A stretch of DNA of 64,000 nt from Streptomyces sp. PsTaAH-137 (GTDB lineage Bacteria > Actinomycetota > Actinomycetes > Streptomycetales > Streptomycetaceae), in the NCBI RefSeq assembly GCF_003259365.1, contig NZ_QLLY01000005.1, forward strand, positions 310,001 to 374,000, written 5' to 3'. The notes beneath the pieces were generated by a model, which saw nothing but the letters and a program-made list of their open reading frames with translations, was not told where the DNA came from and made no database searches. Positions 1,980 to 6,744 of this stretch are shown piece after piece (the stretch's first letter is position 1; each line of letters starts with the position of its first letter). Both the position numbers and the translations under genes were made by a program.

Positions 1980-2402
1980 TCAACCGAGAAACGACAACCG
2001 CACCTGCCGCCGCGCATTGTCCACGTTCGTGTCCACCAAGCACACGGACTGCCACGTCCCCAGTTCCAGTCCTCCCCCGATCACCGGCAACGTCGCATGG
2101 GGCGGGACGAACGCCGGGAGGACGTGGTCGCGGCCGTGGCCGGGGCTGCCGTGGCGGTGCTGCCAGCGGTCGTCGGCCGGGAGGAGGGTGTGCAGGGCCG
2201 CGAGGAGGTCGTCGTCGCTGCCCGCGCCCGTCTCGATGACGGCGATGCCCGCGGTGGCGTGCGGGACGAAGATGTTCAGCAGGCCGTCGCGGCCGCGGGC
2301 GACGTCGCGCAGGAAGGACTCGCAGTCGCGGGTGAGGTCGACGATCCGCTCGGCGGAGCCGGTGGTGACGTTCAGGACGTGGGTTGTGAAGGCATCGGAC
2401 AT
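1980..2402 (-). CDS. YjbQ/UPF0047-family protein
   Basis: 140 residues from the ATG at 2402 (a second ATG lies 9 bp upstream at 2411), the normal size for this single-domain family. Conserved blocks are visible: NIFVPHATAGIAVIE near residue 40, a DDRW.HRHG block near 75, and LGTWQSVCLVD near the C-terminus. Members are often annotated as secondary thiamine-phosphate synthase because some rescue thiE mutants, but the physiological role is uncertain. It is transcribed away from the ssu leader region and is probably monocistronic. Confidence 0.87.
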   Translation of the reverse strand: MSDAFTTHVLNVTTGSAERIVDLTRDCESFLRDVARGRDGLLNIFVPHATAGIAVIETGAGSDDDLLAALHTLLPADDRWQHRHGSPGHGRDHVLPAFVPPHATLPVIGGGLELGTWQSVCLVDTNVDNARRQVRLSFLG

Positions 2403-2496
2403 AGGTGCCATTGTCGCCCACCAGGGCCGCCGAGCGACGGAAGGCCATCGCCCGGATCCCGCACCCTGGTACAGGGGTCCACCCAGCGAGACGGCA

Positions 2497-2525
2497 TTGA
2501 CGGTACGTCGACAGGTGGCTACGTT
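2497..2525 (+). promoter_or_regulatory. Promoter of the ssu leader peptide and operon
   Basis: TTGACG at 2497-2502 is followed after exactly 17 nt by TACGTT at 2520-2525, close to a HrdB-type -35/-10 pair. Transcription would start about 7 nt downstream of the -10, at or within a base of the ATG at 2533, which predicts a leaderless mRNA. Confidence 0.6.
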
Positions 2526-2532
2526 CTGGCGC

Positions 2533-2616
2533 ATGTTGCGTTCAGCCCTGCTCACCACGCGCGGTCACATCGACCTGCTGCGGGTGGCCTCCGCCGCGTG
2601 TCGCCGCGGCTGCTGA
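2533..2616 (+). CDS. Cysteine-rich leader peptide upstream of the ssu operon
   Basis: A 27-codon ORF whose product contains HIDLLRVASAAC and ends in CRRGC, with Cys codons at positions 24 (TGT) and 27 (TGC, the last before TGA). Small peptides with an (R/G)HIDLLRVAS core are a recurring putative leader peptide in actinobacteria upstream of sulfur genes. Cysteine-responsive attenuation by Cys-containing leader ORFs has been reported in mycobacteria. Here the peptide lies 136 bp upstream of ssuC, on the same strand, behind its own promoter. It has no Shine-Dalgarno, consistent with leaderless translation. Ribosome stalling at the Cys codons when charged tRNA-Cys is scarce is the inferred switch. 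Confidence 0.8.
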   Translation: MLRSALLTTRGHIDLLRVASAACRRGC

Positions 2617-2752
2617 CGCCCTTCTTCTCGCTTTTCTTCTTCCTTCCCCTTTCGCTCCGTCTCGGTCCACGCCTGTGCCGACGCGTCGCTGAGGCACGCC
2701 CGGCGCCGCCTCGACCGCCACCGGAGCGCACCCTCCCCTGCCCTGGAGTGCC
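2617..2752 (+). promoter_or_regulatory. Leader region between leader peptide and ssuC, with pyrimidine tract
   Basis: The first 45 nt after the leader stop are almost pure pyrimidine, with runs of CTTCTTC and CTTTTC. Downstream, GTGCC and GGCAC arms can pair around an internal GACG/CGTC, and CTCC just upstream can pair with the GGAG of the ssuC ribosome binding site (about 2745-2748). This is what an attenuation or RBS-masking leader would need, but no folding was calculated. Confidence 0.4.
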
Positions 2753-3655
2753 ATGAGCATCAGCCATGCCCCGCCCCAGAAACCGTCCAGCGACGCATCC
2801 GGTCAGTCCGGTGAGGTGGATTCGCCCCCGCCCGCCGATCCCGCGTCCGCGCTGGAACTGGTGCCGATCGTTCCCTCCTCCGCCCGTCGCACCCGCCTCC
2901 CCCGGTGGCTGCGCCGCACCTCCGGTCCTCTTCTTCTGCTCGCCCTGTGGCAACTACTCAGCTCCACGGGTGTGTTGACCCCCGAGGTGCTGGCCTCGCC
3001 GGGCACCATCGCCGGTGTAGCGCGTGACCTGTTCGCCGACGGCTCGCTGCCCACCGCGATGGGCGTCTCACTGCAACGTGTCGCCCTGGGGCTGCTGTTC
3101 GGCGTCGTCGTCGGAGTCGGGCTCGCGCTGGTGTCGGGGCTGTTCCGGATCGGTGAGGACCTGGTCGACGCGAGTGTGCAGATGCTGCGGACCGTCCCCT
3201 TCGTGGGGCTCATCCCGCTGTTCATCATCTGGTTCGGGATCGGCGAGGCCCCGAAGATCGCCATCATCACGCTGGGCGTGTCGTTCCCGCTGTACCTCAA
3301 CGTCTACGCGGGGATTCGCGGCGTCGACTCCCAACTCGTGGAAGCGGGCGAGTCGTTGGGGCTGAGCCGCTGGGGGCTCGTGCGCCATGTCGTGCTGCCG
3401 GGGGCGCTGCCCGGGGCCATGACCGGGCTGCGGTACTCGCTCGGGATCTCCTGGCTCGCGCTCGTGTTCGCCGAGCAGATCAACGCCGACGCCGGCATCG
3501 GCTTCCTGATGGTGCAGGCGCGGGACTTCCTGCGGACCGACGTCATCGTCGTCTGCCTGATTGTCTACGCGTTCCTCGGCCTGCTCGCCGATTTCGTCGT
3601 CCGAACCCTCGAAAGGCTGTTGCTGCAATGGCGACCGACGTTCACCGGCCGGTGA
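2753..3655 (+). CDS. ssuC: Sulfonate ABC transporter permease SsuC
   Basis: 300 residues: about 65 polar residues, then six hydrophobic segments from LLLLALWQLLSS onward. The BPD_transp_1 EAA loop is clear (EAGESLGLSRWGLVRHVVLPG, cytoplasmic, contacts SsuB). The protein resembles SsuC/TauC-type permeases for sulfonates, taurine or nitrate; the substrate is assigned from the ssuD gene in the same operon. The start has a GGAG six bases upstream. Its 3' end overlaps ssuB by 28 bp, so the two subunits are translationally coupled. Confidence 0.9.
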   Translation: MSISHAPPQKPSSDASGQSGEVDSPPPADPASALELVPIVPSSARRTRLPRWLRRTSGPLLLLALWQLLSSTGVLTPEVLASPGTIAGVARDLFADGSLPTAMGVSLQRVALGLLFGVVVGVGLALVSGLFRIGEDLVDASVQMLRTVPFVGLIPLFIIWFGIGEAPKIAIITLGVSFPLYLNVYAGIRGVDSQLVEAGESLGLSRWGLVRHVVLPGALPGAMTGLRYSLGISWLALVFAEQINADAGIGFLMVQARDFLRTDVIVVCLIVYAFLGLLADFVVRTLERLLLQWRPTFTGR

Positions 3656-4470
3656 CCCCGCCCGCCACCGCCCGCTCCGCGGTACGCGTCTCAGGACTCA
3701 CCCGCGCCTTCGACGGACGGGCCGTCATCGATGATCTGCACCTTGACGTACAGGAGGGCGAGTTCGTCGTTCTGCTCGGACGGAGCGGGTGCGGGAAGTC
3801 GACGCTGCTACGGATCCTGGCCGGGCTCGACCGGGACATCAAGGGCACCGTCCTGGTGCCGCGCCGCAAGGCCGTGGCCTTCCAGGCGCCTCGCCTGATG
3901 CCGTGGAAGCGGGTGTGGCGCAACGTCCTGCTCGGCCTGCCGGGCTCCCCGGGGCGGGACGTCGCCGAGCGGGCGCTGGACGAGGTCGGTCTCGCCCACC
4001 GTACGAATGCCTGGCCGAAGACCCTCTCCGGCGGCGAGGCCCAGCGCGCCTCGCTCGCCCGGGCCCTCGTCCGTGAGCCCGAACTGCTGCTGCTGGACGA
4101 GCCGTTCGGAGCGCTGGACGCCCTGACCCGGATCAAGGCCCAGCGCCTGGTCGGCGAGCTGTGGCAGCGGCGGGGCTGCGCCGTCCTGCTGGTCACCCAC
4201 GACGTCGAGGAAGCGGTACTCCTCGCCGACCGGGTGCTCGTGATGGACGACGGCGTCATCGCGTACGAGACCAGGATCGATCTGGACCGGCCGCGCGACA
4301 TCGGCGACCCGCGCTTCGCCGAACTGCGGGCCGAGTTGCTGCGGCGGCTCGGCGTCGACGACAACACCGACAGCGGCGAGGCCATCGGCAGCGGATCCGG
4401 CGGTGGACCCCACCAGCAGGACGCGCAGGACGCTCCCTCGGCGACGGTCGCGAAGCAACCCGTCACCTGA
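3628..4470 (+). CDS. ssuB: Sulfonate ABC transporter ATPase SsuB
   Basis: 280 residues with all motors parts intact: Walker A GRSGCGKST (51-59), Q-loop QAPRLMPW, signature LSGGE (133-137), Walker B LLLLDEP (153-159) and the H-loop LLVTHD (His 191). About 40 residues of polar, Gly/Ser-rich tail follow the NBD. It energises the SsuC permease. The start inside ssuC is supported by codon bias beginning there and by the usual ssuCB overlap; the next gene, ssuA, starts 55 bp downstream. Confidence 0.92.
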   Translation: MATDVHRPVTPPATARSAVRVSGLTRAFDGRAVIDDLHLDVQEGEFVVLLGRSGCGKSTLLRILAGLDRDIKGTVLVPRRKAVAFQAPRLMPWKRVWRNVLLGLPGSPGRDVAERALDEVGLAHRTNAWPKTLSGGEAQRASLARALVREPELLLLDEPFGALDALTRIKAQRLVGELWQRRGCAVLLVTHDVEEAVLLADRVLVMDDGVIAYETRIDLDRPRDIGDPRFAELRAELLRRLGVDDNTDSGEAIGSGSGGGPHQQDAQDAPSATVAKQPVT

Positions 4471-4525: not shown

Positions 4526-5572
4526 ATGCGACGCCTCCTCCCCCTCCCCGCCCTGCTCACCCCGCTGGCCCTGCTCCTCGCCGCCTGCTCGGGCGCCTCC
4601 TCCGCCACCACGTCCACCGCGGGTGCGGGAGGCGGCGGCACAGACGGAAAGGGCTCGCTCACGCTCAACGTCGGTGACCAGAAGGGCGGTTCGGAGGCCG
4701 TCCTGCGGGCCGCCGGTGAGCTGGACGACCTCGACTACAAGATCCGCTGGTCCACCTTCACCTCCGGACCACCGTTGCTCGAAGCCGTCAACGCCAAGGC
4801 CGTGGACATCGGCGGAGTCGGCAACACCCCGCCCGTCTTCGCGGCCGGCGCCGACTCGAAGATCAAGGTGGTGTCGGCCAGTCACGGCACCGCGAAGGGC
4901 GACACCATCCTCGTACCGAAGGACTCCTCGCTGCGTACACCGTCCGAGCTGAAGGGGAAGTCCATCGCGGTGGCGCAGGGATCGTCCGCGCACTACCAGT
5001 TGGTCGCCTCCCTGAAGAAGGCCGGGCTCGGGTTCGGGGACGTCAAGGTCAAGTACCTCCAACCGGCCGACGCGCTGGCCGCGTTCACCGGCGGCAAGGT
5101 CGACGCGTGGGCGGTCTGGGACCCGTACACCTCGCAGGTGCTGCGCGCCAAGCAGGGCCGGGTGCTCACCGACGGCGACGGGGTCACCAACGGGCTGGCC
5201 TTCCAGGTCGCCTCCCCGACCGCCCTCGCCGACAAGAAGAAGTCCGCGGCCATCAAGGACTACCTGGACCGGCTGCGGCGCGCCCAGAACTGGGTCTACA
5301 AGCACCCCGAGGAGTGGGCGAAGGTCTGGGCGAAGGACACCGGGCTGCCCTACGACGTCGCGCTCGACGCGGTGAAGCGGACGAACGGCACACGCGTGAC
5401 CGTCGCCATCGACAAGGACGTCATCGCCTCGGAGCAGCAGATAGCCGATGCCTTCACGGAGTTGAAGCTGATCCCGCGCAAGGTCGACTTCTCGGAGTTC
5501 GTCGATACGCGGTTCAACGGCGATCTGCCCGCCTCCAGCACCGCCCCGCGCACCTACGCCAAGGAGTCCTGA
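4526..5572 (+). CDS. ssuA: Aliphatic sulfonate-binding lipoprotein SsuA
   Basis: 348 residues from the ATG at 4526. The N-terminus is a lipoprotein signal peptide ending in the lipobox LLAAC (Cys about 18), then a Gly/Ser/Thr linker and a periplasmic-binding fold of the SsuA/THI5/NMT1 type (VGDQKGGSEAVLRAAGEL, VDIGGVGNTPPVFAAGA, VAVAQGSSAHYQLV). It captures sulfonates outside the membrane and delivers them to SsuCB. An upstream in-frame extension to 4403 overlaps ssuB and lacks a signal peptide, so it was rejected. The ssuD start follows after only 2 bp. Confidence 0.92.
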   Translation: MRRLLPLPALLTPLALLLAACSGASSATTSTAGAGGGGTDGKGSLTLNVGDQKGGSEAVLRAAGELDDLDYKIRWSTFTSGPPLLEAVNAKAVDIGGVGNTPPVFAAGADSKIKVVSASHGTAKGDTILVPKDSSLRTPSELKGKSIAVAQGSSAHYQLVASLKKAGLGFGDVKVKYLQPADALAAFTGGKVDAWAVWDPYTSQVLRAKQGRVLTDGDGVTNGLAFQVASPTALADKKKSAAIKDYLDRLRRAQNWVYKHPEEWAKVWAKDTGLPYDVALDAVKRTNGTRVTVAIDKDVIASEQQIADAFTELKLIPRKVDFSEFVDTRFNGDLPASSTAPRTYAKES

Positions 5573-5574
5573 CC

Positions 5575-6744
5575 ATGACCGTGTCCCTGCACTGGTTCCT
5601 GCCGACCGGTGGCGACGGCCGGAGCCTGGTCGACCGGCACGCGTTCAGCGGTGGTGCGCTGGGCGGCACTCCGGGCGGCGCGGTCACCGGGGTGCGGGCG
5701 CCCAGCCTGGACTATCTGATCCAGATCGCCAAGGCCGCCGAGCAGTTGGGCTTCGAAGGGGTCCTCACGCCGACCGGCACCTGGTGCGAGGACGCCTGGC
5801 TGACGACCGTGGCGCTCGCCCAGCACACACGCCGGCTCAAGTTCCTCGTCGCGTTCCGGCCCGGTGTGATCTCTCCGGTGCTGGCCGCGCAGATGGCGTC
5901 GACGTATCAACGCCTCACTCAGGGACGGCTGTTGCTCAACGTCGTCACGGGTGGCGATTCGGCCGAGCAGCGTCGCTACGGCGATCACCTCGACCACGAC
6001 CGTCGCTATGCCCGCACCGACGAGTTCCTCTCCGTGGTGCGCGGCGTGTGGGGCGGGAGCGCGCAGGCACCGTACGACTTCGCGGGCGAGCACTACCGGA
6101 TCGACGCGGGCTACTCGGCGCTGCCGCCCGAGCCCGTGCCGCAGATCTTCTTCGGTGGTTCGTCGGCCGCGGCCGGGCCGGTCGCCGCACGCCACACGGA
6201 CGTCTATCTGACGTGGGGCGAGCCGCCGGAGCAGGTGAAGGAGAAGATCGACTGGATCCGGTCCCTCGCGGAGAAGGAGGGGCGGACCGTACGGTTCGGG
6301 ATCCGGCTGCACACGATCACCCGCGACTCGGCGCGCGACGCGTGGACCACCGCCGACCGGCTGCTCGACGACCTCTCCCCCGAGACGGTCGCGGCGGCGC
6401 AGTCCGCGCTCGGGCGCAGCGAGTCGGTGGGACAGCAGCGGATGCTCGCACTGCACGGCGGCAAGCGGGAGGGCCTGGAGATCTCGCCCAATCTGTGGGC
6501 CGGGATCGGTCTCGTGCGCGGTGGCGCGGGGACCGCGCTCGTCGGCAGCCACGCCGAGGTCGCCGACCGGATCGAGGAGTACCACGCGCTCGGCATCGAG
6601 CACTTCGTCCTCTCCGGCTATCCGCATCTGGAGGAGGCGTACTGGTTCGGGGAGGGCGTGATCCCCGAACTGGTGGCGCGCGGGCTCGTGGCGCCGGTGG
6701 CGGCCGGGAGCGGTGCGCCGCTGCTGGTGGCCGGCGGGCGCTGA
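5575..6744 (+). CDS. ssuD: FMNH2-dependent alkanesulfonate monooxygenase SsuD
   Basis: 389 residues of the bacterial luciferase-like fold. SsuD features are visible: an opening SLHWFLPTGGDGR, the TPTGTWCEDAW segment carrying the conserved active-site Cys, RPGVISPVLAAQMASTYQRL, LLLNVVTGGDSAEQRRYGD and a final HFVLSGYPHLEEAYWFGEGV. The enzyme oxidises alkanesulfonates to aldehyde and sulfite using FMNH2 from a separate reductase; no ssuE-like reductase is in the window. It ends the operon 18 bp before a strong hairpin. Confidence 0.94.
   Translation: MTVSLHWFLPTGGDGRSLVDRHAFSGGALGGTPGGAVTGVRAPSLDYLIQIAKAAEQLGFEGVLTPTGTWCEDAWLTTVALAQHTRRLKFLVAFRPGVISPVLAAQMASTYQRLTQGRLLLNVVTGGDSAEQRRYGDHLDHDRRYARTDEFLSVVRGVWGGSAQAPYDFAGEHYRIDAGYSALPPEPVPQIFFGGSSAAAGPVAARHTDVYLTWGEPPEQVKEKIDWIRSLAEKEGRTVRFGIRLHTITRDSARDAWTTADRLLDDLSPETVAAAQSALGRSESVGQQRMLALHGGKREGLEISPNLWAGIGLVRGGAGTALVGSHAEVADRIEEYHALGIEHFVLSGYPHLEEAYWFGEGVIPELVARGLVAPVAAGSGAPLLVAGGR

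Follow-up and report, generated by a model that had tools for sequence, protein, structure and literature searches.

The ssu-like operon of Streptomyces sp. PsTaAH-137 (source genome of 8.96 Mb) is preceded by a short, strongly conserved leader ORF, in which a Cys codon close to the stop is nearly always UGU and is nearly always followed by a pyrimidine. The ORF is located in the window, i.e., the whole stretch of 64,000 nucleotides that was analysed. We give about an even chance to the reading that this ORF would act in cis as a sensor of Cys-tRNA for the ssu operon, with stalling of the ribosome at UGU and Rho-dependent attenuation after the leader stop codon. The leader, its conservation, the genome-wide set to which it belongs, the rule for the Cys codon and the next base, the near-stop position and the composition bias are read from the sequence. 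Translation, stalling, the direction of the response and the role of Rho are what we infer, the direction being assumed from the target genes. The locus contains the following features:

2497–2502, plus strand: −35-like hexamer TTGACG, read from sequence
2520–2525, plus strand: −10-like hexamer TACGTT, after a 17-nt spacer behind TTGACG
2533–2616, plus strand: leader ORF of 27 codons, ATG at 2533, peptide MLRSALLTTRGHIDLLRVASAACRRGC followed by the stop
2560–2601, plus strand: conserved peptide core RGHIDLLRVASAAC, with core residues kept class-wide
2599–2601, plus strand: proposed sensor codon Cys23, TGT, with C as the next base (2602)
2611–2613, plus strand: Cys27, TGC, poorly conserved
2617–2658, plus strand: stretch adjoining the stop, rich in pyrimidines and poor in G, rut-like by composition only
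2745–2748, plus strand: ssuC Shine–Dalgarno sequence GGAG, read from sequence
2753–3655, plus strand: ssuC-like permease gene, the first past the leader (best NCBIfam match NF008470 SsuC, E 1.1e-71, under the cut-off)
3628–4470, plus strand: ssuB-like ATPase gene (best NCBIfam match NF008420, E 1e-76, under the cut-off)
4526–5572, plus strand: ssuA-like binding protein gene, start inferred (TIGR01728 SsuA_fam, 204.7 bits, cut-off 163.5)
5575–6744, plus strand: ssuD-like alkanesulfonate monooxygenase gene (NF001939, E 7.8e-140, and TIGR03565, E 2.8e-137, both under the cut-off)

The ssuC, ssuB, ssuA and ssuD models are the best matches in this order, and the curated cut-off is passed by ssuA only. 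The leader peptide matches the NCBIfam model NF042934, ‘putative leader peptide’ (30.4 bits, cut-off 27, model positions 2–19 of 19), and scores 21.8 bits with NF042936, the model of the Cys-rich leader Ms4527A, under the cut-off of 45. No match for the peptide was found in Pfam, and a search of Rfam with the region 2300–2900 (E up to 10) returned two matches, both far under their gathering scores. A generic promoter scan of window positions 2380–2860 found no promoter. In the preliminary description, a −35/−10 pair with 17-nt spacing was reported to place the transcription start at the ATG of the ORF; the pair is present and the gap between TACGTT and the ATG is 7 bases, the start itself remaining a prediction from the spacing in orthologues. 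The 27-codon ORF was likewise described correctly, as was its Cys codon 27, but the first Cys is codon 23 and not codon 24.

To place the leader among its orthologues, SsuC was searched in 150 genomes of the genus and every one of the 59 places with E < 1e-120 was examined; a partial ssuC match of 82% identity (G005) lies beyond this limit and was left out of the orthologue count. The leader is present at 57 of the 59 places, which amounts to 57 of the 58 orthologues with usable upstream DNA. The two places that lack it are L033, with 108 bases of upstream DNA only, and L083, a second copy that is 71% identical. At eleven farther SsuC paralogues (57–58% identity) the leader was not found. In a set of 80 loci from named genomes, all labelled Streptomyces, the leader occurs in 79, the remaining locus (L102) being without upstream DNA; this set and the 57 orthologues share organisms. 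Together with the NF042934 score over the cut-off, the presence at the ssuC orthologues means that the leader, as judged from its sequence, is more than a chance ORF.

The promoter-like elements are kept as well. A TANNNT hexamer ends before the ATG in all 57 orthologue leaders, at 7 nt in 52 and at 6 nt in five, and TTGAC stands 17–18 nt ahead of the −10-like hexamer in 56. This spacing suggests that transcription starts at or adjoining the leader ATG, because of which translation would be of the leaderless type. The earlier view that the ssu operon has a Cys-containing leader, probably of the leaderless type, is supported by the family match, the orthologues and the hexamer spacing. In many ssu orthologues a GTCCA...CGAGAC(A/G)CC block was seen by eye just 5′ of the −35 (window 2478–2502), which may represent an operator.

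Codon 23 is TGT in 56 of the 57 orthologue leaders and in all 79 leaders of the named Streptomyces; the lone exception carries TAT (Tyr) and retains the last Cys. Residue 27 is Cys in 33 of the 57 (Arg in 19, His in one, others in four) and in 55 of the 79, and its role as a regulatory codon, which had been proposed, is weakened by its replacement in 24 leaders of either set. All 79 leaders of the named Streptomyces contain one to three Cys residues. The ssu leader at L072 (reverse strand) ends in GDGCCCYCCCYC, a poly-Cys tail that resembles the mycobacterial form. Conservation extends to synonymous sites, where the mean share of the most frequent codon is 0.97 in the ssu leaders vs 0.79 in conserved SsuC codons (79 loci), a level that was reached by none of 20,000 draws. 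Codon 11, for instance, is GGT in 57 of 57 leaders, and the synonymous sites across 2533–2601 are almost frozen. As these sites vary far less than those of SsuC, the ssu leaders must be constrained at the nucleotide level beyond the peptide.

The leader belongs to a family that is widespread in the class. A profile search of the own genome with NF042934 gave 23 matches at E up to 10, nine of them above the cut-off, compared to 10 of 14 control genomes with a match at E up to 10 and none above the cut-off. After reading in orientation, 14 matches were accepted as leaders, five of them under the curated cut-off, and three (L015, L020 and L021) were rejected; six of the weakest matches (L017, L018, L019, L022, L023 and L024) fell outside this reading. 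Downstream ORFs were picked mechanically by length and codon composition. Recognisable genes, mostly of sulfur or cysteine metabolism, follow 12 of the other 13 leaders, the remaining one being L012. Their Pfam domains are sulfatase, PALP (cysK/cysM type), three luciferase-like monooxygenases, cysteine dioxygenase, a glutathione-transferase C-terminal domain, rhodanese, nitrite/sulfite reductase, SDF symporter, flavin reductase and a Cys/Met metabolism PLP enzyme.

At E up to 1e-4, NF042934 is found in 233 of 394 genomes and 83 of 137 genera of the class, and in none of the 14 control genomes. In a phylum-wide draw 16 of 296 genomes match, all 16 labelled as own, same genus or same class, and a plasmid search returned two records with a match. 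The matches across the class agree with the earlier suggestion of a kinship to mycobacterial Cys leaders and of a wide spread in actinobacteria. Among 86 class loci, 18 hand-picked downstream ORFs encode sulfite reductase, PAPS reductase (three times), SDF (twice), two flavin/FMN reductases, CbiX, several binding proteins, pyruvate:ferredoxin oxidoreductase, an ROK protein and a conserved hypothetical protein, with one ORF lacking a match. At L206 two divergent family leaders lie within 240 bases, both with TGT, and one of them precedes a gene with a CbiX domain. A few family matches (L006 in the own genome, near 1501, L316 and L318) keep the RxHIDLxRV core and lack the Cys, having Met, Gly or a stop after Tyr instead; one of the three precedes a glutathione-transferase-like gene. 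These Cys-less matches have either decayed or sense something else.

The codon rule was established on a first set of 100 distinct leaders (14 from the own genome and 86 class-wide, from 26 families), where each of the 99 leaders with a motif Cys encodes it by TGT. A second set of 85 new distinct leaders, from which ten duplicates had been removed beforehand, was examined after the codon prediction had been fixed; here the motif Cys is TGT in 80, TGC in three and absent in two. Thus, three of the 185 leaders in both sets are without the motif Cys. Four leaders had been left out of the first set, namely those at L239, L249 and L263, which among the 89 class loci failed the motif pattern, and the second leader at L206; they all have TGT, which brings the total to 183 of 186 Cys-bearing leaders. 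As a background, TGT accounts for 15–23% of Cys codons, i.e., 45 of 239 in the mechanically chosen downstream ORFs, 31 of 163 and 27 of 118 among the other Cys codons of first-set and second-set leaders, respectively, and 21 of 142 in the window genes. Since the leaders share descent, nominal p-values overstate independence and are indicative only.

In leaders with at least two Cys codons including the motif one (n = 114, class and second set), motif position 11 is TGT in 112, compared to TGC in 75 of 81 at position 4. Sixteen poly-Cys leaders share the motif, with TGT at position 11 in 15 of them, and the contrast is weaker there as positions 9, 12 and 13 are also mostly TGT; seven of these leaders precede an ORF that resembles, by eye, the rhodanese gene after leader L010. 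The codons for the motif Asp and Arg vary, unlike the motif Cys codon. The base after TGT (n = 179) is C in 138 cases, T in 32 (three of these being stop codons), A in seven and G in two, as compared to G as the first codon base at 41% in downstream ORFs. The expectation that G would never follow TGT failed in two of 80 leaders of the second set. The residue after the motif Cys varies (mostly Arg, Pro, Cys, Leu, Gln or His in the first set), and as these residues differ in chemistry, it is the first codon base that they share. The sensor Cys is 0–5 codons ahead of the stop in 154 of 169 leaders.

Both tRNA-Cys genes that were found by a pattern search, which divergent genes would escape, have the anticodon GCA, so that the choice of isoacceptor is unlikely to explain UGU. 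UGU is read by this tRNA with a wobble pair at the third base. Regarding the next base, a change from C to A 3′ of an amber codon raised suppression tenfold for one suppressor, and the direction and size of the context effect differed among suppressor tRNAs (PMC6266110, available part). What UGU and the following pyrimidine have in common, by analogy, is weak reading by the tRNA, which suggests that a single Cys codon is slow by design. A +1 frameshift at UGU was weighed by eye and dropped, since re-pairing is not favoured by the codons ahead of UGU.

Directly behind the leader stop, the pyrimidine tract of the preliminary description is indeed real: the first 40 nt contain 18 C, 19 T, three G and no A. 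In the 20 nt that follow the stop, the C and G fractions are 0.50 and 0.15 in ssu leaders and 0.45 and 0.27 in the class and second set, with C exceeding G in 52 of 57 ssu leaders and 142 of 171 class leaders. For comparison, these fractions are 0.34 and 0.33 in 32 further intergenic stretches of the window, 19 of which have C above G; this is a small control of 45-nt stretches at −60 to −15 of gene starts, the geometry of which differs from that of the post-stop 20 nt. An excess of C over G is a weak predictor of Rho sites. A scan of window positions 2380–2860 found no site resembling an intrinsic terminator, which does not fit a classical transcription attenuator with such a terminator in this region of the window.

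In the mechanism that we propose, transcription would start at or next to the AUG, and a 70S ribosome would begin leaderless translation at once. The ribosome would meet UGU at 2599–2601, four codons before the peptide ends, while the exit tunnel holds the conserved chain R-G-H-I-D-L-L-R-V. With its wobble reading and weak 3′ context (a C follows), the UGU of codon 23 should be the first codon to starve when Cys-tRNA falls, and the nascent chain probably slows decoding at the same Cys codon. With enough cysteine, the ribosome would finish and leave, exposing C-rich and G-poor RNA on which Rho would load, so that transcription would end ahead of ssuC. Under cysteine shortage, the ribosome stalled at UGU would hinder Rho and ssuCBAD would be made. 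Several observations stand against this explanation, i.e., the three leaders with TGC, the ssu orthologue with Tyr-23, the three Cys-less family matches and the derivation of the 3′ context rule from amber suppression. Another one is the presence of a leader at a cysteine dioxygenase gene, which should rather be needed at high cysteine. This leader (L005, with TGT) lies just upstream of the gene at 1662–2198 on contig C3 of the own genome, and leader peptides much like it (RLWRRVHMDL...) are present in other genomes. As an enzyme that destroys cysteine is not expected to be induced by Cys starvation, the sign of the response may be reversed at this locus.

In mycobacterial polycysteine attenuators, the leader RNA sequesters the downstream RBS. 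Translation attenuation, as described for the M. smegmatis relatives, which are not presented as Rho-dependent in the available text (PMC13236596, PMC9031893), remains the main rival to Rho-dependent attenuation. According to this explanation, which we consider somewhat unlikely, a ribosome stalled at Cys would stop the leader RNA from sequestering the ssuC RBS; short leader arms masking this RBS had also been suggested in the preliminary description. The unusual conservation of synonymous sites in the ssu leader is in its favour. So are the folds of 48 of the 57 orthologous leader RNAs (spacing up to 260 nt, GGAG present; thermodynamic prediction only), in which the ssuC Shine–Dalgarno region is mostly paired, with a mean unpaired fraction of 0.11. 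However, its pairing with the leader averages only 4% in these RNAs, and when a stall was modelled by keeping the leader unpaired near the Cys codon, the Shine–Dalgarno region became more accessible in two and less accessible in nine of the 48, by which the masking by leader arms loses its support. Moreover, the Shine–Dalgarno region folds no better than shuffles, and the distance between the leader and ssuC, with the ssuC start placed by an upstream GGAG in 57 of 57 orthologues, ranges from 104 to 404 nt. A covariance check, which had been called for earlier, was also negative: in an alignment of 24 ssu leaders, RNAalifold predicted 23 pairs inside the leader, none of which has a compensatory change, which leaves a conserved structure of the leader RNA unsupported. 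Considering the lack of a terminator in the scanned region of the window, the variable spacing, the absence of covariation and the little pairing between leader and RBS, Rho-dependent attenuation of the tna type fits best.

The peptide itself is selected too, since all 171 leaders have Arg at motif position −2, encoded by no fewer than five different codons, and this suggests that the nascent chain helps the stall. It also favours an arrest peptide, in which the stall would be caused not by a shortage of Cys-tRNA but by the nascent chain acting jointly with free cysteine or some other sulfur metabolite, as TnaC does with tryptophan. In that case, which seems unlikely to us, some genes could respond with the opposite sign, and the cysteine dioxygenase among the targets would find a place, as would the single Cys in 50 of the 171 leaders and the stall of TnaC at the leader stop with the rut site just after it (PMC8429421, available part). 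The motif Asp and the second Arg do not vary either, although the pattern that located the motif demanded both, so that their invariance is partly imposed; in L249, which this pattern had missed, Glu replaces the Asp. By itself, however, an arrest peptide gives no reason for UGU over UGC nor for the pyrimidine at the next base, and many targets are assimilation genes, expected to go up at low cysteine. Finally, UGU with its pyrimidine could be a signal in the RNA, such as a ribonuclease cut, a protein site or a base-pairing element, to which the Cys residue would be secondary. The constraint does cross the codon boundary, with C or T after UGU in 170 of 179 leaders whatever the residue. Yet this explanation is very unlikely, as the codon is in frame with a conserved peptide and the Cys is lost in only three of 185 leaders. 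Among the ssu leaders, pairing between TGT and the ACG in codon 9 is possible, but no common partner of UGU was found class-wide (86 leaders), and pairing is therefore rejected as the general reason for TGT.

A Rho-dependent model for mycobacterial cys leaders is reportedly due to Seliverstov and colleagues. It was offered in 2005 as a tna-like model, in a comparative genomics study that predicted Cys leader peptides in Mycobacterium, P. acnes and B. longum, where it was termed weak (PMC1262725, available part). Those leaders are similar to the ones described here in having Cys codons near the stop, no terminator hairpin and poly-pyrimidine motifs; in the part of that paper available, there is neither a Cys leader from Streptomyces nor mention of a single-Cys form or a codon rule. 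Cys-rich leaders on leaderless mRNAs are known in mycobacteria as well (PMC4633059, in part), and polycysteine leaderless short ORFs were the work of Canestrari et al. 2020 (as cited in the available parts of PMC13236596, PMC9031893 and PMC9094748). Compared with the latter, the ssu leader is also a short Cys-containing ORF, predicted to be leaderless, ahead of Cys or sulfur genes, here an ssu-like operon. Unlike those polycysteine ORFs, it lacks a contiguous Cys run, C23 and C27 of the window being isolated and only one of them well conserved, and unmasking of the RBS is unsupported, with no release of the Shine–Dalgarno sequence in 46 of 48 RNAs modelled by thermodynamic prediction. The likeness to TnaC and the tna operon (PMC8429421) lies in the leader peptide, the near-stop stall and the rut site directly after the stop. 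TnaC, however, senses high free tryptophan at a stop codon, whereas for the ssu leader the signal is most likely a shortage of Cys-tRNA, read at a sense codon. The Cys attenuator uORFC-8-2 before cysS in Rhodobacterales equally has Cys codons in a short upstream ORF, but according to the available part of PMC8632094 these are in tandem with UGC dominant and an intrinsic terminator follows, in contrast to UGU and no terminator in the window region for the ssu leader. At the protein level no difference was seen between the window peptide and NF042934 cis_reg_atten, the one-line description of which is silent on codons, mechanism and ligand. Hence, the peptide family (NCBIfam), the leaderless Cys-rich leaders of mycobacteria and the idea of Rho are already known. 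Searches of openly licensed papers found no description of the rule of UGU plus pyrimidine, of leaders with a single Cys or of the leader set in Streptomyces.

Beyond the first reading of this DNA, the analysis adds the near-invariant UGU, the pyrimidine next to it and the interpretation of the pyrimidine tract as a site where Rho may act. A network of cysteine leaders that had been known in mycobacteria is extended to Streptomyces and to no fewer than 26 families sampled in the class; one genome alone has 14 accepted leaders, several of them with one Cys only. UGU before a pyrimidine would be the weakest place for reading Cys, by wobble and 3′ context, so that a single codon would replace the usual run of regulatory codons. 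tRNAs that read codons starting with U often have a sulfur-containing modification at A37, so that the sensor might also read under-modified tRNA-Cys, i.e., sulfur itself. It is tentatively conceivable that the tetranucleotide UGU-pyrimidine, in a fixed position behind a conserved nascent chain, is a code of decoding weakness, shared as a sensor by many sulfur operons of Actinomycetes. The near-uniform use of the rare TGT at the key Cys hints at the way in which the cell would read its supply of cysteine, and the near-fixed UGU-pyrimidine offers, in one synonymous base, a test of whether attenuators tune their sensitivity via the codon–anticodon strength of a single codon.
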